Positions 31,478-59,193 of a stretch of 64,000 nucleotides of DNA are shown piece after piece. The position numbers were made by a program, and so were the translations under genes. This DNA is from an uncultured Bacteroidales bacterium (GTDB taxonomy: Bacteria > Bacteroidota > Bacteroidia > Bacteroidales > FEN-979). The notes beneath the pieces are model-generated. The model made no database searches. It was not told the DNA's origin and worked only from the letters and a program-made list of their open reading frames with translations. Numbering within the stretch: the stretch's first letter is position 1; each line of letters opens with the position of its first letter. The stretch covers positions 1 through 64,000 of the forward strand of contig CAJAUM010000070.1 of the NCBI GenBank assembly GCA_903945175.1, written 5' to 3'.

Positions 31478-31530
31478 AATGACCAATGACCAATTACCAA
31501 TTACCAATGACCAATTACCAATGACCAATT
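31478..31530. repeat. seven AATGACC/AATTACC heptamers
   Basis: AATGACC x2, AATTACC x2, AATGACC, AATTACC, AATGACC, then AATT. Confidence 0.9.
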
Positions 31531-31540
31531 TTAACTCCAT

Positions 31541-31705
31541 TACCTTGTTACCTTGTCACCTTGTTACCTTGTCACCTTGTCACCTTGTTACCTTGTTACC
31601 TTGTCACCTTGTCACCTTGTCACCTTGTCACCTTGTCACCTTGTCACCTTGTCACCTTGTCACCTTGTCACCTTGTCACCCTGTCACCCTGTTACCCTGT
31701 CACCT
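31541..31705. repeat. 20 full units plus a partial of an octamer tandem array (Y)ACC(Y)TGT
   Basis: TACCTTGT/CACCTTGT/CACCCTGT/TACCCTGT in perfect 8-bp register. Confidence 0.97.
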
Positions 31706-31706
31706 C

Positions 31707-32654
31707 TTAAAACACCGACACCTTCACGTATTTGCCAGGATTCTTCTTGATGTCTTCCAACAATAAATTCAGATCGCGGGCGGCTTTTTCAACTTCCTTA
31801 TAAAGTTGTTCATTTGTCAGCAATTGGCCAACCGTTCCCTCTCCCTTGTTGATTTTTTGAAGCACAAGGTCCAGGTCGACAATGGCATTGTTTAGCTGCG
31901 CAATGGTGTAAGGAATGCGGGCTTTTGCAAGGGAATCACTGATATCAGAAAAATTGGTGATCACATTGGTTATTTTATCATTGTTCTGTTTCAGGTTGTT
32001 GCTGATCGACTCTACATTGGTGATGATTTTTGCAAGGTTATTGCGCTGGGATCCCATCAGTGTGTCGAGATTTTGCGTAGTATGCGCAATGTTTCCAAGG
32101 GTCTGCTTCACATGTTCGATGGCTTCAACCAGGTTTTCACGGGTGTTTTTATTGAGCACCTGTTGAATAATGACTGCAATGGTATCAATGGAACTGATCA
32201 GATTTTCTGCTTTTGTTTTCAATGGAAGCAACTGTTTGTTCACCTCCTGGCCCAGGGTTGCTTCAAGTGCCGATAAAAGTGTATCCCCTGATACAGCCAT
32301 CACTTTTGAATCACCGGGAATAATCTCTACCTCCGGCGCTCCAAGCAGGCTGGAACTGAATATGCGTGCTTTTGAATTTTTCGCAATGGGATAATCTCCC
32401 AGGATATACAGCTCTACGATTATATTTTTGGGGTTATCCTTGTCGAAATAGAGTTTCTTGACCTGTCCGACTTTCAATCCCTTGATGGAGATTGGGTTCG
32501 CAGCAACCAGGCCATTTACCTGGTCATAAACGGCATAAAACGTTCGGCTGGTCTTAAGCAATTCAAGACCTTTCAGAAACATCAGACCCCAGATAAGTAC
32601 TGCAGTTGCGATTACAAAAGTAACGCCGACTTTTATCTCTTTCCTGATTTTCAC
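31707..32654 (-). CDS. MlaD/MCE family lipid transport protein
   Basis: 315 aa; single N-terminal TM, MCE domain YDQVNGLVAANPISIKGLKVGQVKKLYFD. Confidence 0.9.
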   Translation of the reverse strand: MKIRKEIKVGVTFVIATAVLIWGLMFLKGLELLKTSRTFYAVYDQVNGLVAANPISIKGLKVGQVKKLYFDKDNPKNIIVELYILGDYPIAKNSKARIFSSSLLGAPEVEIIPGDSKVMAVSGDTLLSALEATLGQEVNKQLLPLKTKAENLISSIDTIAVIIQQVLNKNTRENLVEAIEHVKQTLGNIAHTTQNLDTLMGSQRNNLAKIITNVESISNNLKQNNDKITNVITNFSDISDSLAKARIPYTIAQLNNAIVDLDLVLQKINKGEGTVGQLLTNEQLYKEVEKAARDLNLLLEDIKKNPGKYVKVSVF

Positions 32655-37242: not shown

Positions 37243-38442
37243 CTATCTTGCGGTTAAAATGTACGGCGCCCAAATGGTCGGCAAAGCTGTTTCAGGGCAG
37301 CTGATCATCTGCAATTTAACTTCGCGCAAAGCCTGGCTGTATGTTTTTCCGCTAAGACATAATCGATAAAAATTGATCATAAAGTCTCCCGCAAGATGAT
37401 CAGTTACATTCCATAGCGTTGACAGGATATTTCTGGCACCTGCCTTTATAAACACCTCAGGCAGCGTATAGTCACGCACCCCCGAATTATGCTTTACAAT
37501 CCCTGAAGCACACGCATTCAAAACAATCAGGTCTGCTTGCAATTGCAATCCCTTAATTTCTTCAATGGTGAGGATGCCTTCATTTTTCCCATCCACTGTC
37601 ACGGCTGGATCATACCCGGAAAAAAGAAAGCCGCCATAACCTTTATTGGGCGCTTCTGCCAGATAATGAGTTGAAAGATGAACGATTTTCCCCATGCATG
37701 CAACGGTTTTAAAATATTCCTTTTCTGAATATTCTTCATATACCAGCCAGGATGTAAGTCCTTGCTGCCTGAACAAGGAGCCTATTTCGGCAATTTCCTG
37801 CCTTGAGTCAGGAAGTTCGGAAAGTCCGGCATTATTGTGAAAAACAGGAGAAAAGCCCATAAAAGAAAATTGGGCGTTAACCGGTATCATGGTATTTTCG
37901 TCCGCTGTATTAAATACAGCATCCTGACCAAAATCCTGTTTACTATGGTATATAATCTCGTAATCACGTATCAGATAATGAAGGGCGGTTCCTATGTGAA
38001 GCGACCGTTCATCATCCGGCCGGATTAAGGCTTCAAATGGCAGCTCCGACAACCTGTCGTCAGTTTTGATGATCAATCGCCTCTTCCCTATAATAAAATC
38101 CTGGATGGGCCGGATCAGGAACAAATACAATATCTGGCCTGCGATGTCAAAACCTCTTTTATCTGCAGATTTTATTTTTTTCCTGAATGATTGATGCGCC
38201 ATCCAGAACAGTGGATTCAAAGATTGAATTGCCAGCAATGTTGAATCACCAACTGTGGCAAAAACAATGGCTGTGGAATCAGTAACCGCGAATTCAAGCA
38301 AAGCCTCATCCTGTTTGAGACAATAGTTACCTCTATTGGCTTCCTTCGATGGCAGCGTGGTTTGGGCCTCAATGATTCCCGGAATAACCGGGATCATTAT
38401 TGTTGGAAGGATAATCGTAATCCAGGAAAAAATATGTATCAT
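37243..38442 (-). CDS. exported CHAT domain (caspase-like) protein
   Basis: 399 aa; N-terminal hydrophobic signal; KIVHLSTHYLAEAP (His) and ADLIVLNACASGI (Cys), TLWNVTDHLAGDFMINFY. Confidence 0.85.
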   Translation of the reverse strand: MIHIFSWITIILPTIMIPVIPGIIEAQTTLPSKEANRGNYCLKQDEALLEFAVTDSTAIVFATVGDSTLLAIQSLNPLFWMAHQSFRKKIKSADKRGFDIAGQILYLFLIRPIQDFIIGKRRLIIKTDDRLSELPFEALIRPDDERSLHIGTALHYLIRDYEIIYHSKQDFGQDAVFNTADENTMIPVNAQFSFMGFSPVFHNNAGLSELPDSRQEIAEIGSLFRQQGLTSWLVYEEYSEKEYFKTVACMGKIVHLSTHYLAEAPNKGYGGFLFSGYDPAVTVDGKNEGILTIEEIKGLQLQADLIVLNACASGIVKHNSGVRDYTLPEVFIKAGARNILSTLWNVTDHLAGDFMINFYRLCLSGKTYSQALREVKLQMISCPETALPTIWAPYILTAR

Positions 38443-38461
38443 ACTAAATGAAATTTATGGT

Positions 38462-39247
38462 TTAAAAAAGTGTGAGTTTACCCAGGAGGATCATTTCTTC
38501 ATCCAGAATGATTTTCCAGTAATAAATCCCCCCGGGCCAATCCTTCGTATTTAAAATATAGGAATCATCCAAAAGTGCAGGTGTTTCAAAAATCAAATTT
38601 CCAGCATTATTGTAAAACAAAATATTGACCGGAAGCACCCTGTTTTGGGAAACCCATTCAAATTTAACATCGTATCCTGCTGCTATTTTCCAATTGGACG
38701 CCGGGGATTTGATTGTAATTTGGGAAGACCTGGTAACCGAACCAACCAGCAATTCAAAATCAGGCAACGGCATATAATTCAATGAAAGATACTGATTCAC
38801 TGAATGTTCCTGCCATTTTTGCGTGACCATTTTCCTCTCCTGCACCGGAATTTTTAAATTATCTTTTGATAATAGCTTTCCTTCAGCTCCTTTCCATATT
38901 TCATTTTGATCTGAATTGGAACTGGATGCATAATCAACAGGATCATAATGCATCCTATTGAAAATTATAGCCAATGCCATGAGATAGAGAATGGATGCAG
39001 CCAACAGCAAATACCCCAGCTTACCTCCCCGCCGGTCAGACTTTTGTCTGGCATCCTGGATTTTTTTCACCAGATCCAGGGTCCCCTCATCCTGGTATAA
39101 TTTGTTCAGGCACTCGTCAATATAGACTTCGGTGCGTAACAATGGATTCACCTCCAACCGCTTTCGGAAGAATTCCTTTTCTTCTTCATTCAGTTCGTTT
39201 TCGTTGTAACGATCAATCCAATCATTTGTAATTTCCATGTCTTTCAT
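38462..39247 (-). CDS. putative single-TM anti-sigma factor-like membrane protein
   Basis: ORF to 39277; acidic cytoplasmic N-terminus, one TM (GYLLLAASILYLMALAIIF), C-terminal beta-rich domain; overlaps the ECF sigma gene and precedes CHAT. Confidence 0.65.
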   Translation of the reverse strand: MKDMEITNDWIDRYNENELNEEEKEFFRKRLEVNPLLRTEVYIDECLNKLYQDEGTLDLVKKIQDARQKSDRRGGKLGYLLLAASILYLMALAIIFNRMHYDPVDYASSSNSDQNEIWKGAEGKLLSKDNLKIPVQERKMVTQKWQEHSVNQYLSLNYMPLPDFELLVGSVTRSSQITIKSPASNWKIAAGYDVKFEWVSQNRVLPVNILFYNNAGNLIFETPALLDDSYILNTKDWPGGIYYWKIILDEEMILLGKLTLF

Positions 39248-39827
39248 ATTCAAAATATTGTTGATATTCAGGATCACCTATTATTCTCTTACGCAACATG
39301 TTTTTGCAACTATACTTGCGTGTTTTTACATACACTTCATCTTTGAAGTTCATAAGCCGGGCAATTTCCTTATAGGGGATCTTTAAAAAGTAAAGTTCCA
39401 GCAGCCGCTGACAATCTGCTGGCAGTGACAGCATGTTTTTGTACAGCAGGCGTCGTTTCTCATTGTTTTCTTCACGTGTTTCCATGTCGTCGGAATTATA
39501 GGTGGAATTGGGTTCATTCACTTCAAATTCGGCCTGGTAAAGCAGGCGGTATTTATTATCGAGGTGCTGTAACCACAGATTTTTACATATCGAGATGAAA
39601 AAGGTCTTCAGGCTGCACTTCAATTCAAAGGGCTGATTGAGTGATCGTTTATACAAAAGGATTATGGCCTCCTGAACCAGATCGCCCACGTCAGATTCAC
39701 TTCCGGAATTTTGCTTGACAAGATGTCTAACTACCGGGGTAAATTCCTGGTAGATATAATCGATATGACGCTGTTTTCTTTGCCGCAGGCCTTCAATTAG
39801 CGTTTCATCTGAATAACGGAGGATCAT
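39222..39827 (-). CDS. ECF-type RNA polymerase sigma-70 family factor
   Basis: 201 aa; region 2 DVGDLVQEAIILLYKRS, region 4 LPADCQRLLELYFLKIPYKEIARLMNF. Confidence 0.88.
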   Translation of the reverse strand: MILRYSDETLIEGLRQRKQRHIDYIYQEFTPVVRHLVKQNSGSESDVGDLVQEAIILLYKRSLNQPFELKCSLKTFFISICKNLWLQHLDNKYRLLYQAEFEVNEPNSTYNSDDMETREENNEKRRLLYKNMLSLPADCQRLLELYFLKIPYKEIARLMNFKDEVYVKTRKYSCKNMLRKRIIGDPEYQQYFEYERHGNYK

Positions 39828-40756: not shown

Positions 40757-42747
40757 TCGCCAAGCAATGCGTCGTTGACCAAATTCGGCAATGTAACATG
40801 CAGCCTGGGTTCATGCTGCATGGCGCGTTTTATAGCAAAGATGGCTTCATCGTTTCGGGCCCAGGCGCGACGTGCGATTCCGTTGTTCACATCCCAGTGA
40901 AGCATTGACTTTAATTTTCGGGCTGCATCCGCTGTACCATCGAGCAACATACCAAAGCCGCCATTGATCACTTCGCCCCAGCCAACACCTCCGCCATTGT
41001 GGATAGAAACCCAGGTGGCTCCCCGGAATCCATCACCAATCACGTTCTGGATGGCCATGTCGGCTGTAAACTGCGAACCATCATAAATATTGGAGGTTTC
41101 GCGATAGGGTGAATCGGTTCCGGAAACGTCATGATGATCGCGACCAAGAACGACAGGTGCCGAAATCCGGCCAGCAGCAATGGCTTCATTGAAGGCTGTC
41201 GCTATTTTTGTACGCCCTTCACAGTCTGCATAAAGAATGCGGGCCTGCGACCCGACAACCAATTTATTCTTTCCGGCCTCACGGATCCAATGAATGTTAT
41301 CGCGCATCTGCATTTCGATTTCGCTGGGTGAGGTTTGTGCAATCTCTTCAAGGACGGTGGCCGCAATGTGGTCGGTAACAGCAAGGTCTTCCGGTTTTCC
41401 CGAGGTACACACCCAACGGAATGGGCCGAATCCATAATCAAAAAACAGCGGTCCCATGATGTCCTGAACATAGGATGGATAGATGAAGGTTCCATCAGCC
41501 TTCATCACATCTGCACCAGCCCGGGAGGCCTCGAGTAAAAACGCGTTGCCATAATCCCAGAAATACATGCCGTTTTCAGCCATTTTGTTGATGGCAGTCA
41601 CCTGCCGGCGCAACGATTCCTGAACGACACGCTTGAATTTTTCCGGTTCTTCAACCATTAGCCGGTTCGACTCCTCAAAGGTGAGGCCGACAGGATAATA
41701 ACCGCCTGACCATGGATTATGTAAAGAAGTTTGATCAGAACCCAGTTCAATCCGAAGGTTTTGATGGGCAAAATGTTCCCAAAGATCCACAATATTTCCC
41801 TGGTATGCCAGTGATACGGCTTCATGATTGGATATGGCCTGCTTCAGGCGGCCCTCCATCTCCTTGAGATCGGTAAATACCTCATCGACCCAGCCCTGCT
41901 GATGACGCTTTTTCACCACGGCCGGATTGATTTCTGCAACTACGGCAATGGCTCCGGCAATAACGGCTGCCTTTGCCTGGGCCCCCGACATGCCTCCCAA
42001 CCCTGAAGTGACAAAAACCATCCCTGCAATGGTATCGGATGTCACCTTGCGTGCAGCATTCAGAATGGTTATGGTTGTTCCATGCACAATCCCCTGCGGA
42101 CCGATATACATATACGAACCAGCCGTCATTTGCCCGTATTGCGTTACACCGAGTGCATTGAAGCGTTCCCAGTCGTCGGGTTTGGAATAGTTGGGTACCA
42201 TCATCCCGTTTGTAACGACCACACGCGGGGCATCGGCGTGTGAGGGGAAAAGACCCATCGGATGTCCTGAATACATTACAAGCGTTTGATCATCCGTCAT
42301 GTTGGCCAGGTACTTCATGGTGAGCAGGTACTGAGCCCAATTCTGAAATACCGCTCCGTTTCCGCCATAGGTAATTAGTTCATGGGGATGCTGCGCCACA
42401 GCCGGGTCAAGGTTATTCTGAATCATCAGCATAATGCTGGCAGCATGGATTGAACGGTGCGGATATTCATGTATGTTTCTGGCAAACATTGGATATGCAG
42501 GCCTGAAACGGTACATGTAGATACGCCCGTATTTTTTGAGCTCATCGGCAAATTCCGGCGCCAGCGCTGAATGATATTTTGGATCGAAATACCTCAACGC
42601 ATTTTTCAAGGCAAGTTTTTTCTCGTCGGATGATAAAATATCTTTTCTGACCGGGGCATGATTGGCCAGTGCATCATGGGGCAGCATTTCGGGTAGTCCG
42701 TCTGGAATACCGCGCAGGATTGCCTGCCTGAAATCGTTTGTATTCAT
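40744..42747 (-). CDS. hutU: urocanate hydratase
   Basis: 667 aa; GGNGAVFQNWAQYLLTMKYL, SGHPMGLFPSH, TSGLGGMSGAQAKAAVIAG, HNGGGVGWGEVINGGFGMLLDG. Confidence 0.95.
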   Translation of the reverse strand: MNTNDFRQAILRGIPDGLPEMLPHDALANHAPVRKDILSSDEKKLALKNALRYFDPKYHSALAPEFADELKKYGRIYMYRFRPAYPMFARNIHEYPHRSIHAASIMLMIQNNLDPAVAQHPHELITYGGNGAVFQNWAQYLLTMKYLANMTDDQTLVMYSGHPMGLFPSHADAPRVVVTNGMMVPNYSKPDDWERFNALGVTQYGQMTAGSYMYIGPQGIVHGTTITILNAARKVTSDTIAGMVFVTSGLGGMSGAQAKAAVIAGAIAVVAEINPAVVKKRHQQGWVDEVFTDLKEMEGRLKQAISNHEAVSLAYQGNIVDLWEHFAHQNLRIELGSDQTSLHNPWSGGYYPVGLTFEESNRLMVEEPEKFKRVVQESLRRQVTAINKMAENGMYFWDYGNAFLLEASRAGADVMKADGTFIYPSYVQDIMGPLFFDYGFGPFRWVCTSGKPEDLAVTDHIAATVLEEIAQTSPSEIEMQMRDNIHWIREAGKNKLVVGSQARILYADCEGRTKIATAFNEAIAAGRISAPVVLGRDHHDVSGTDSPYRETSNIYDGSQFTADMAIQNVIGDGFRGATWVSIHNGGGVGWGEVINGGFGMLLDGTADAARKLKSMLHWDVNNGIARRAWARNDEAIFAIKRAMQHEPRLHVTLPNLVNDALLGDYSK

Positions 42748-43352
42748 ATTTTTTCCTGTGAAGTTCGCAATATCTGATAGAGAAATTCCCTGGCCCTGAA
42801 GAGCTGGGCCTTCACAGTACCCAGAGGCAAATCGAGTTCCGTGGCAATTTCTTCATAAGACCATTCCTTGAAATAGCGCAATTCAATCAGTTGGCGGTAA
42901 TGTGGCTTGAGTTTTTCCACCACATCATGCATCAACTGAATCTTCTGCTTTTCGATGATTTTTTCTTCAGGATCAAGACCATCTGACGGAATGTTGGAAG
43001 GCGCATCCTGATATTCTCCGTCGTCGTCAAAAAAATTATCGGCAAACTGAATCCGCTTGTTCTTGCGTAAAAAATCAATGCAGTTATTGGCCGCAATCTT
43101 GAAAAGCCAGGTACTGAAAGCAAATTCAGGCGTATATTGCTTCAGGTTTTTAAATGCTTTTCCGAAGGCTTCAATGGTGAGATCATCGGCATCGGTGGCA
43201 TTGCTGGTCATCTTCAGCATCATAAAATAGAGGGAATCGCGGTATTTATTCAACAGTTCGGCATAGGCCTGCTGATCTCCCTGATCGAGGGCCAGTTGCA
43301 CGAGCACATAATCGTGTTGCGCCTTTTCAGTCAGATGAGCCGCTACTTCCAT
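42744..43352 (-). CDS. RNA polymerase sigma factor, sigma-70/ECF family
   Basis: 202 aa; DADDLTIEAFGKAFKNLKQYTPEFAFSTWLFKIAANNCIDFLRK, YEEIATELDLPLGTVKAQLFRAREFL. Confidence 0.93.
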   Translation of the reverse strand: MEVAAHLTEKAQHDYVLVQLALDQGDQQAYAELLNKYRDSLYFMMLKMTSNATDADDLTIEAFGKAFKNLKQYTPEFAFSTWLFKIAANNCIDFLRKNKRIQFADNFFDDDGEYQDAPSNIPSDGLDPEEKIIEKQKIQLMHDVVEKLKPHYRQLIELRYFKEWSYEEIATELDLPLGTVKAQLFRAREFLYQILRTSQEKI

Positions 43353-58629: not shown

Positions 58630-59193
58630 TTAGTCTTCCATCATAAACGCCTTGATGGTACTTTCATCAACCCTTGTAAGCAGGTTGGCTGCAAGATTTT
58701 CATGTGAACCAAAGTATCCCTGTACTTTTTCTTTGGCTACCAAGGTCGGGCTGCTTGTAACGGTGGCCCTGAATGAGGAAAACCGGTAATTTGCAGGATG
58801 TTCAGTAACACCGTGCCGCCAGGGATTTTGATTGACATACCTGATCATCTCAAAAAAATATAGAAGATTCCTGATCTCCATCCGTTTGAGCTTGAATTTA
58901 AAAACCCGGCCCTCTTTTCCGTTGTGAATATTATAGCCTTTGGAATAGGCGTTGAACAACAGGGCAAACGGTTTGAAGAGACTCCCGGCTGCCTCGTCCC
59001 GGATCCGGATCAGCAAGTGAAGGTGATCGCTTAGCAAGCAATAGGCATACGTCTCCGCGATGGGGTAAATATGCACCTGGTATAGTTTCATAAAGAAGCG
59101 ATAGGCCTCTTCGTTTTCAAACAGCGGGTCGCCGTTTTTTGCCCGGTTGTATACATGGTAATACTTTCCCGGTTCCAACAATGTTGTTTTCAT
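58630..59193 (-). CDS. Y1/HUH transposase-like protein (RAYT family)
   Basis: 187 aa; YYHVYNRAKNGDPLFENEEAYRFFMKLY, HUH motif LLSDHLHLLIRI, single-ORF isolated copy. Confidence 0.85.
   Translation of the reverse strand: MKTTLLEPGKYYHVYNRAKNGDPLFENEEAYRFFMKLYQVHIYPIAETYAYCLLSDHLHLLIRIRDEAAGSLFKPFALLFNAYSKGYNIHNGKEGRVFKFKLKRMEIRNLLYFFEMIRYVNQNPWRHGVTEHPANYRFSSFRATVTSSPTLVAKEKVQGYFGSHENLAANLLTRVDESTIKAFMMED

Follow-up and report, generated by a model that had tools for sequence, protein, structure and literature searches.

A minus-strand operon of three genes, encoding an ECF sigma factor, a single-TM protein resembling an anti-sigma factor and an exported, caspase-like CHAT protease (Table 1), was found in the window, the whole 64-kb stretch of DNA analysed here. 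The sigma and TM genes overlap by 17 nt, and a gap of 19 nt separates the stop codon of the TM gene from the start of the CHAT gene. Gene order, strand, coordinates, overlap and gap, all given in a preliminary description of this DNA, were borne out on re-reading, and there is very little doubt that the operon is present and that its products are of the kinds assigned to them. Conservation was followed in 43 genomes of the GTDB family to which the window belongs (hereafter the family), all of them uncultured MAGs, and the counts obtained from them are not phylogenetically independent. Two further features of the window are a second ECF sigma gene, SigW/RpoE-like and without an adjoining anti-sigma gene, located 3 kb upstream of the operon (42744-43352), and a long tandem array of an 8-nt unit, (ACCTTGTC)n, preceded by an ACCAATK-type prelude (31478-31741).

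Table 1. Features of the operon, of its predicted promoter and of a predicted regulon member in the window
Feature	Position	Strand	Evidence and remarks
ECF sigma factor, 201 aa	39222..39827	-	TIGR02937 E=5.4e-19; ortholog in 42/43 family genomes
Single-TM anti-sigma-like protein, 258 aa from ATG 39238	38462..39238	-	AlphaFold model pLDDT 80; Foldseek Ig/FnIII; between sigma and CHAT
Arg170 codon (LVGSVTR/SSQ), candidate site of CHAT cleavage, in the loop joining linker helix and Ig domain	38729..38731	-	conservation of 90% or more among 36 family proteins; putative cleavage
Exported CHAT protease, 399 aa, without TPRs	37243..38442	-	PF12770 E=1.2e-40; Foldseek best: Csx29/TPR-CHAT, DdvA, separase
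Predicted signal peptide of CHAT, residues 1-26	38365..38442	-	hydrophobic N-terminus ending IEA/QTT (MIHIFSWITIILPTIMIPVIPGIIEA/QTT)
Catalytic His motif HLSTH (His255/His259)	37666..37680	-	invariant in 34 family CHATs
Catalytic Cys311 (LNACASG)	37510..37512	-	invariant in 34 family CHATs
Promoter-like motif TTACCTTTT-N11-GATTAA	39846..39871	-	exact match, 18 nt before sigma ATG; common to 26/30 family sigma genes and comEC/comM/dprA
Second motif copy, TCACCTTTT-N11-GATTAA	59209..59234	-	1 mismatch to first pattern, exact to degenerate pattern; AAAGTTATTAACA element upstream as at first copy
Predicted regulon member, 187 aa, HxHLLI motif, transposase-like	58630..59193	-	no Pfam match; ATG 15 nt after motif

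Protein products of the operon

The match of the sigma protein to the ECF superfamily model spans residues 22-181, with Sigma70_r2 (E=2e-6) above its cut-off and r4_2 below it. The presence of sigma-2 and sigma-4 regions without sigma-3 assigns the protein to the ECF (group IV) factors, and its own predicted promoter shares a motif with putative targets.

Comparison of the TM protein with Pfam and NCBIfam gave no meaningful match and, in Pfam, no anti-sigma match, and a sequence search of solved structures with the anti-sigma alignment returned linker artefacts only. The structural model, built from an alignment of 36 family sequences, begins with four N-terminal helices (residues 5-69, in a cytoplasmic domain 1-69), followed by a TM helix (73-98) and, after a disordered linker, by an outer domain (174-257), the latter being an eight-strand Ig/FnIII-like sandwich with pLDDT mostly above 90 and Ig/FnIII matches in Foldseek. 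The protein thus has the cytoplasmic helical domain, single TM segment and outer domain of a membrane anti-sigma factor, and it is encoded together with a sigma factor; the cytoplasmic N-terminus, one TM segment and beta-rich outer domain that had been described from the sequence agree with this model.

In the CHAT protein, PF12770 (clan CD) covers residues 101-396 with 140 bits against a cut-off of 24, and this is the single CHAT gene detected in the genome of the window. The N-terminus is hydrophobic in 37 of 40 family CHATs, and His255, His259 and Cys311, the predicted His-Cys dyad, are invariant across the 34 family CHATs that were aligned and across a wider set of 23; these residues were scored by alignment, since strict regular expressions for His and Cys miss valid sites. 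The N-terminal signal and the His-Cys pair (HLSTH, LNACASG) proposed in the preliminary description are thereby confirmed. Foldseek matches of the CHAT model (pTM 0.82) are led by Csx29 (E about 3e-15), followed by DdvA (E=1.5e-12) and separase. When the CHAT alignment was run against the sequences of solved structures, TPR proteins dominated the results, and a search of genome contigs with the window CHAT alone gave no match, while the sigma alignment used as a query did find loci. The lack of TPRs, also described previously, holds for the window CHAT, which has no N-terminal TPR repeats of the kind that define TPR-CHATs, but it is lineage-specific: sister genera carry TPR-CHATs of 824-951 aa at the same locus, and CHATs without TPRs (about 373-457 aa) are found in several genera. 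The TPR-less form was therefore dropped as a novelty, the repeats having been lost in some genera only.

Conservation of the locus and of an extracytoplasmic arginine

The sigma, TM and CHAT genes stand in a row at 35 of the 37 family loci with enough downstream sequence. Of the 151 CHATs listed across 295 genomes in the order, 35 are at most 6.5 kb away from a sigma factor of this type, where 0.5 would be expected. The refuting outcome named in the preliminary description, namely that CHAT homologues mostly occur without these partners, was not observed: the three genes are linked in the family and, in various arrangements, in several other families. In two family genomes (L350 and L368) that keep the sigma gene, the TM gene and the promoter motif, tblastn detected no CHAT at the locus; these genomes provide natural tests of the requirement for CHAT. 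In other Bacteroidales families, Aquimarina and Saprospiraceae, the sigma and TM genes are divergent from, or adjoin, a gene for a TPR-CHAT; these TPR-CHATs have N-terminal, and often also C-terminal, hydrophobic segments, and the outer domain of the corresponding TM proteins is usually TPR-like, not Ig-like.

A related pair of sigma and Ig-type TM genes without CHAT is located directly beside ftsA/ftsZ-like genes in another family (L069, L074, L087). Peptidase_C39 ABC exporters neighbour the sigma/TM/CHAT loci of other families (L072:10893-13079, L085:4737-6929, L088:9388-11577), and sites of the promoter motif described below precede small ORFs for short GG-leader-like peptides in L158 and L203; these exporters and peptides could belong to a branch of the switch devoted to peptide export or signalling. 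At L073:6202-7440 and L096:10144-11397, the gene located between the divergent motif and that of the TPR-CHAT encodes a type IX secreted protein, parts of which are of the CarboxypepD_reg and dockerin-like kinds.

An arginine is conserved in the extracytoplasmic part of the TM proteins of both classes, and the residue after it is mostly small or polar. In the Ig class, this Arg occupies the loop before the sandwich (Arg170 in the window) in 44 of 49 proteins by a strict pattern, with 15 expected, and in the TPR class it lies 18-34 residues past the TM helix in 47 of 49, with 8.5 expected; because the windows for these counts were picked after data inspection, the sequences are related and the two classes are not alignable at the Arg, the conserved residue is to be taken as a lead. 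Separase, which is a structural relative of the window CHAT according to Foldseek, cuts after Arg. A near-invariant Arg in two outer-domain classes is a plausible candidate for the CHAT cut site, and cleavage of the anti-sigma at this very residue is put forward tentatively, at slightly less than even odds.

The promoter-like motif and the predicted regulon

The sequence preceding the sigma genes of the family is conserved to a striking degree; its consensus consists of an A-tract and GTATYACYTTTT-N9-CSGATTAAG, after which the ATG usually follows at a distance of 18 nt. The exact degenerate pattern TYACYTTTT-N11-GATTAA occurs eight times in the genome of the window and 11, 27 and 9 times in three relatives, with no occurrence of the reversed pattern; across the family, it is present in 40 of 43 genomes, typically in about ten copies each, against three occurrences of the reversed pattern in total. 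The motif is rare elsewhere in the order, and the genomes with at least three copies mostly have a close ortholog of the sigma factor (11/14; Fisher p=3e-11, uncorrected for ancestry). As a search allowing two mismatches came near its reversed control (36 versus 27 sites in one genome), the counts reported here are limited to the exact degenerate pattern or to gene-start windows. With a 400-nt window, at most one mismatch and a spacer of 10-12, sites were found at the starts of comEC (27/29), comM (28/30), dprA (14/30) and sigma genes (26/30), compared with 0/119 windows inside the same genes even at two mismatches and 0/595 shuffles at one mismatch or fewer; 12 of the 30 dprA genes are without a good site. 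Exact sites are scarce in L366, L367, L370 and L372, which represent a genus whose sigma promoter has a variant spacer. In genomes of genus g188, the spacer of the sigma promoter differs from that of comEC.

Outside the family, the motif was found at one of 21 comEC genes, in a genome that carries the sigma factor, and an ancient origin of competence control by this sigma was accordingly dropped. Sites in other families face the sigma gene on one side and, on the other, a divergently transcribed operon running into CHAT (divergent sites at 13 loci), and it is this retention of the motif at the sigma/CHAT divergon, in families whose comEC has none, that ties the motif to this sigma.

Genes downstream of about 100 family sites were sampled, and a selection of them was named using Pfam and NCBIfam. 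The putative targets encode ComEC, ComM/YifB (TIGR00368), DprA (TIGR00732), ComF (TIGR00201, below cut-off), RadC, RecJ, SSB and YraN, together with a two-gene operon for an exported PorV-like protein and an HhH protein resembling ComEA (PF12836, weak), LTD/CHU_C proteins with a type IX-like signal and a secreted Exo_endo_phos_3 nuclease; integrases, PIF1, TopA, DUF2851, a dinB-type operon and a DnaE-like operon are also among them. The apparent common promoter on comEC, comF, dprA, comM, ssb and radC is that of a predicted competence regulon. In a transformation screen in Riemerella anatipestifer, ComEC, DprA, ComF, RecA and a periplasmic HhH protein are reported as essential (PMC8459023), and the motif-bearing genes cover much of the set required there.

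Many mobile or accessory small genes also have the motif right at the start codon, as if tuned for expression in competent cells; they encode transposase-like, ORF6N, 23S IVP four-helix, GxxExxY and RhuM proteins and were seen in L104, L105, L113, L144, L173, L176, L179, L182, L188, L243 and L470, as well as in the window (58630-59193); a sister-genus homologue of the 187-aa protein encoded there likewise has the motif (L104, L196). In L232, L226 and L473, the motif is followed by genes for PIF1-like helicase or DUF2851 proteins, and DUF2851, so placed in two genomes, may represent an unrecognised competence gene.

The proposed switch, its alternatives and known systems

The highly specific promoter common to the operon and to DNA-uptake genes suggests that the operon is probably the missing master switch of competence. 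Specifically, the operon is proposed to act as a sigma switch operated by proteolysis and governing natural competence, meaning the uptake and processing of DNA, in the Bacteroidales family of the window, a reading to which a probability of about 0.64 is assigned. In the resting state, the N-terminal helical domain of the TM protein would hold the ECF sigma at the inner membrane, sigma binding by the N-terminal domain being typical of membrane anti-sigmas. Some extracytoplasmic signal would activate the exported CHAT cysteine protease, which would cut the extracytoplasmic part of the anti-sigma, most plausibly after the conserved Arg just before the Ig-like domain, and subsequent intramembrane and cytoplasmic proteolysis, as established for RseA/RsiW, would free the sigma. 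The freed sigma would recognise GTATYACYTTTT-N9-CSGATTAAG and raise expression of its own operon and of comEC, comM, comF, dprA, radC, recJ and ssb, along with the PorV-like/HhH (ComEA-like) operon, the exported LTD/type IX proteins and the secreted nuclease. Control of the motif regulon by the sigma is considered quite likely and, given such control, competence is very likely to be the output; cleavage of the anti-sigma by CHAT is rated as reasonably likely. The generic envelope-sensing role assumed in the preliminary description is not what the regulon suggests, as the promoter motif points to competence control. That description picked out a genuine, conserved system and anticipated its logic well; the most probable output is competence rather than a general envelope response.

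The sigma operon might instead be one target, and not the master, of the competence regulon, with another sigma or activator reading the motif and the CHAT switch forming a side branch. The proposed control is based on motif sharing rather than binding, and the difference between the sigma and comEC spacers in g188 would fit such an arrangement; however, most of the genomes rich in the motif have a close ortholog of the sigma, autoregulation is frequent among ECF factors, as stated for CASP-sigma (PMC10028731), and the families that keep the motif at the sigma/CHAT divergon and not at comEC leave the sigma as the common denominator, so that this alternative appears unlikely. 'DNA stress' is a possible alternative label because accessory genes of mobile type and DNA genes of a general kind (topA, PIF1, the dinB-type operon) also belong to the regulon, besides RecJ, SSB, RadC and the DnaE-like operon; comEC, dprA and comM would then belong to a general DNA-damage or envelope-stress ECF regulon through a role in recombination, and the output would not be competence. 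This is rather improbable, given that no role in repair is apparent for comEC, comF, the HhH periplasmic operon and the exported proteins of the PorV-like and type IX kinds, which match the kind of DNA-uptake set presented in the Riemerella study (PMC8459023).

Other alternatives concern the protease itself. CHAT could serve as an adaptor or act on another envelope protein, with the anti-sigma inactivated by DegS/site-1-like proteases or by ligand binding, and this would be compatible with the two loci that keep the sigma gene, the TM gene and the motif without CHAT, and with CHAT being a separate transcription unit in most other families. The invariance of the catalytic residues, the constant linkage, the conservation of the Arg in an extracytoplasmic loop of two outer-domain classes and two precedents, namely DdvA, a CHAT-containing anti-sigma, and Csx29, which cuts the sigma inhibitor Csx30 between residues 427 and 429 and frees CASP-sigma (PMC10028731), make a non-cleaving CHAT doubtful. 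A type III-E-like, CRISPR-linked CASP system would comprise the same three kinds of proteins as Csx29, Csx30 and CASP-sigma; at the window locus, however, there are no CRISPR arrays and no cas genes, Cas7-11 included, in agreement with the CRISPR independence claimed previously, the CHAT is exported, the TM protein is membrane-bound and the NCBIfam Csx29 model scores 11 bits against a cut-off of 300, leaving this origin with a negligible probability. A link to CRISPR or phage defence was rejected on the same grounds, no PADLOC match of weight having been obtained.

For the competence switch favoured here, the broadest formulation has about even chances: a CHAT-gated ECF sigma would be the family-wide master regulator of transformation, the first for the phylum in the searched literature, its regulon would single out uncharacterised exported proteins (PorV-like/HhH, LTD type IX, secreted nuclease) as candidates for the outer components of the DNA-uptake machinery, and CHAT would cut after Arg in two unrelated kinds of outer domain. 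The open-access literature searched yielded only the CASP paper for CHAT with an ECF sigma or anti-sigma factor and nothing relevant for competence regulators in Bacteroidota.

Type III-E CASP/Craspase, which serves as the model for the proposed mechanism, and DdvS/DdvA come closest among the known systems. Like CASP/Craspase, the system has a CHAT protease, a sigma inhibitor and an ECF sigma encoded together, with the sigma motif in its own locus, and Csx29 is the top structural match of the modelled window CHAT. Craspase, however, is RNA-activated through Cas7-11, whereas the window operon is without cas genes and has an exported CHAT, a membrane-bound inhibitor and a predicted competence regulon. 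The link between CHAT, anti-sigma and ECF sigma is less isolated than the preliminary description had pictured it: DdvS/DdvA of Myxococcus xanthus combines an ECF sigma with a transmembrane anti-sigma that has a CHAT domain and a solved structure, and its activating signal is unknown as well (PMC4374960; DdvA PDB 8rot/8rw5). Anti-sigma and CHAT form one protein there and are encoded by separate genes in the window operon. DdvS is reportedly tied to CRISPR-Cas expression, whereas competence is proposed here. The regulated intramembrane proteolysis of the RseA/RsiW type (DegS-RseP-sigmaE) is similar in that a membrane anti-sigma is thought to be cut outside the cytoplasm and an ECF sigma is freed, but the initiating protease is a PDZ serine protease in that case and would be a clan CD CHAT cysteine protease from the same operon in this one. 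In Gram-positive bacteria, the competence sigmas ComX/SigX and SigH drive late genes of the comEC, comF, dprA, ssb and radC type; they resemble the proposed switch as alternative sigmas for com-type late genes and differ in belonging to an unrelated sigma group, in their upstream control and in having no known anti-sigma/CHAT protease.

The transformation machinery of Riemerella anatipestifer, with ComEC, DprA, ComF, a periplasmic HhH protein and exported surface proteins, resembles the predicted regulon, although this organism is a flavobacterium and the accessible part of that study mentions no sigma/anti-sigma/CHAT regulator (PMC8459023). The switching of DNA uptake and the outer uptake machinery are largely unknown in Bacteroidota, and the screen found essential genes of unknown function; the locus supplies a regulator that can be put to the test, a precisely defined promoter motif and a set of exported proteins listed as co-regulated. 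The principle of coupling CHAT to a sigma factor, represented by one CRISPR type and one myxobacterial anti-sigma, would thereby be widened to a common CRISPR-free envelope switch in Bacteroidota.
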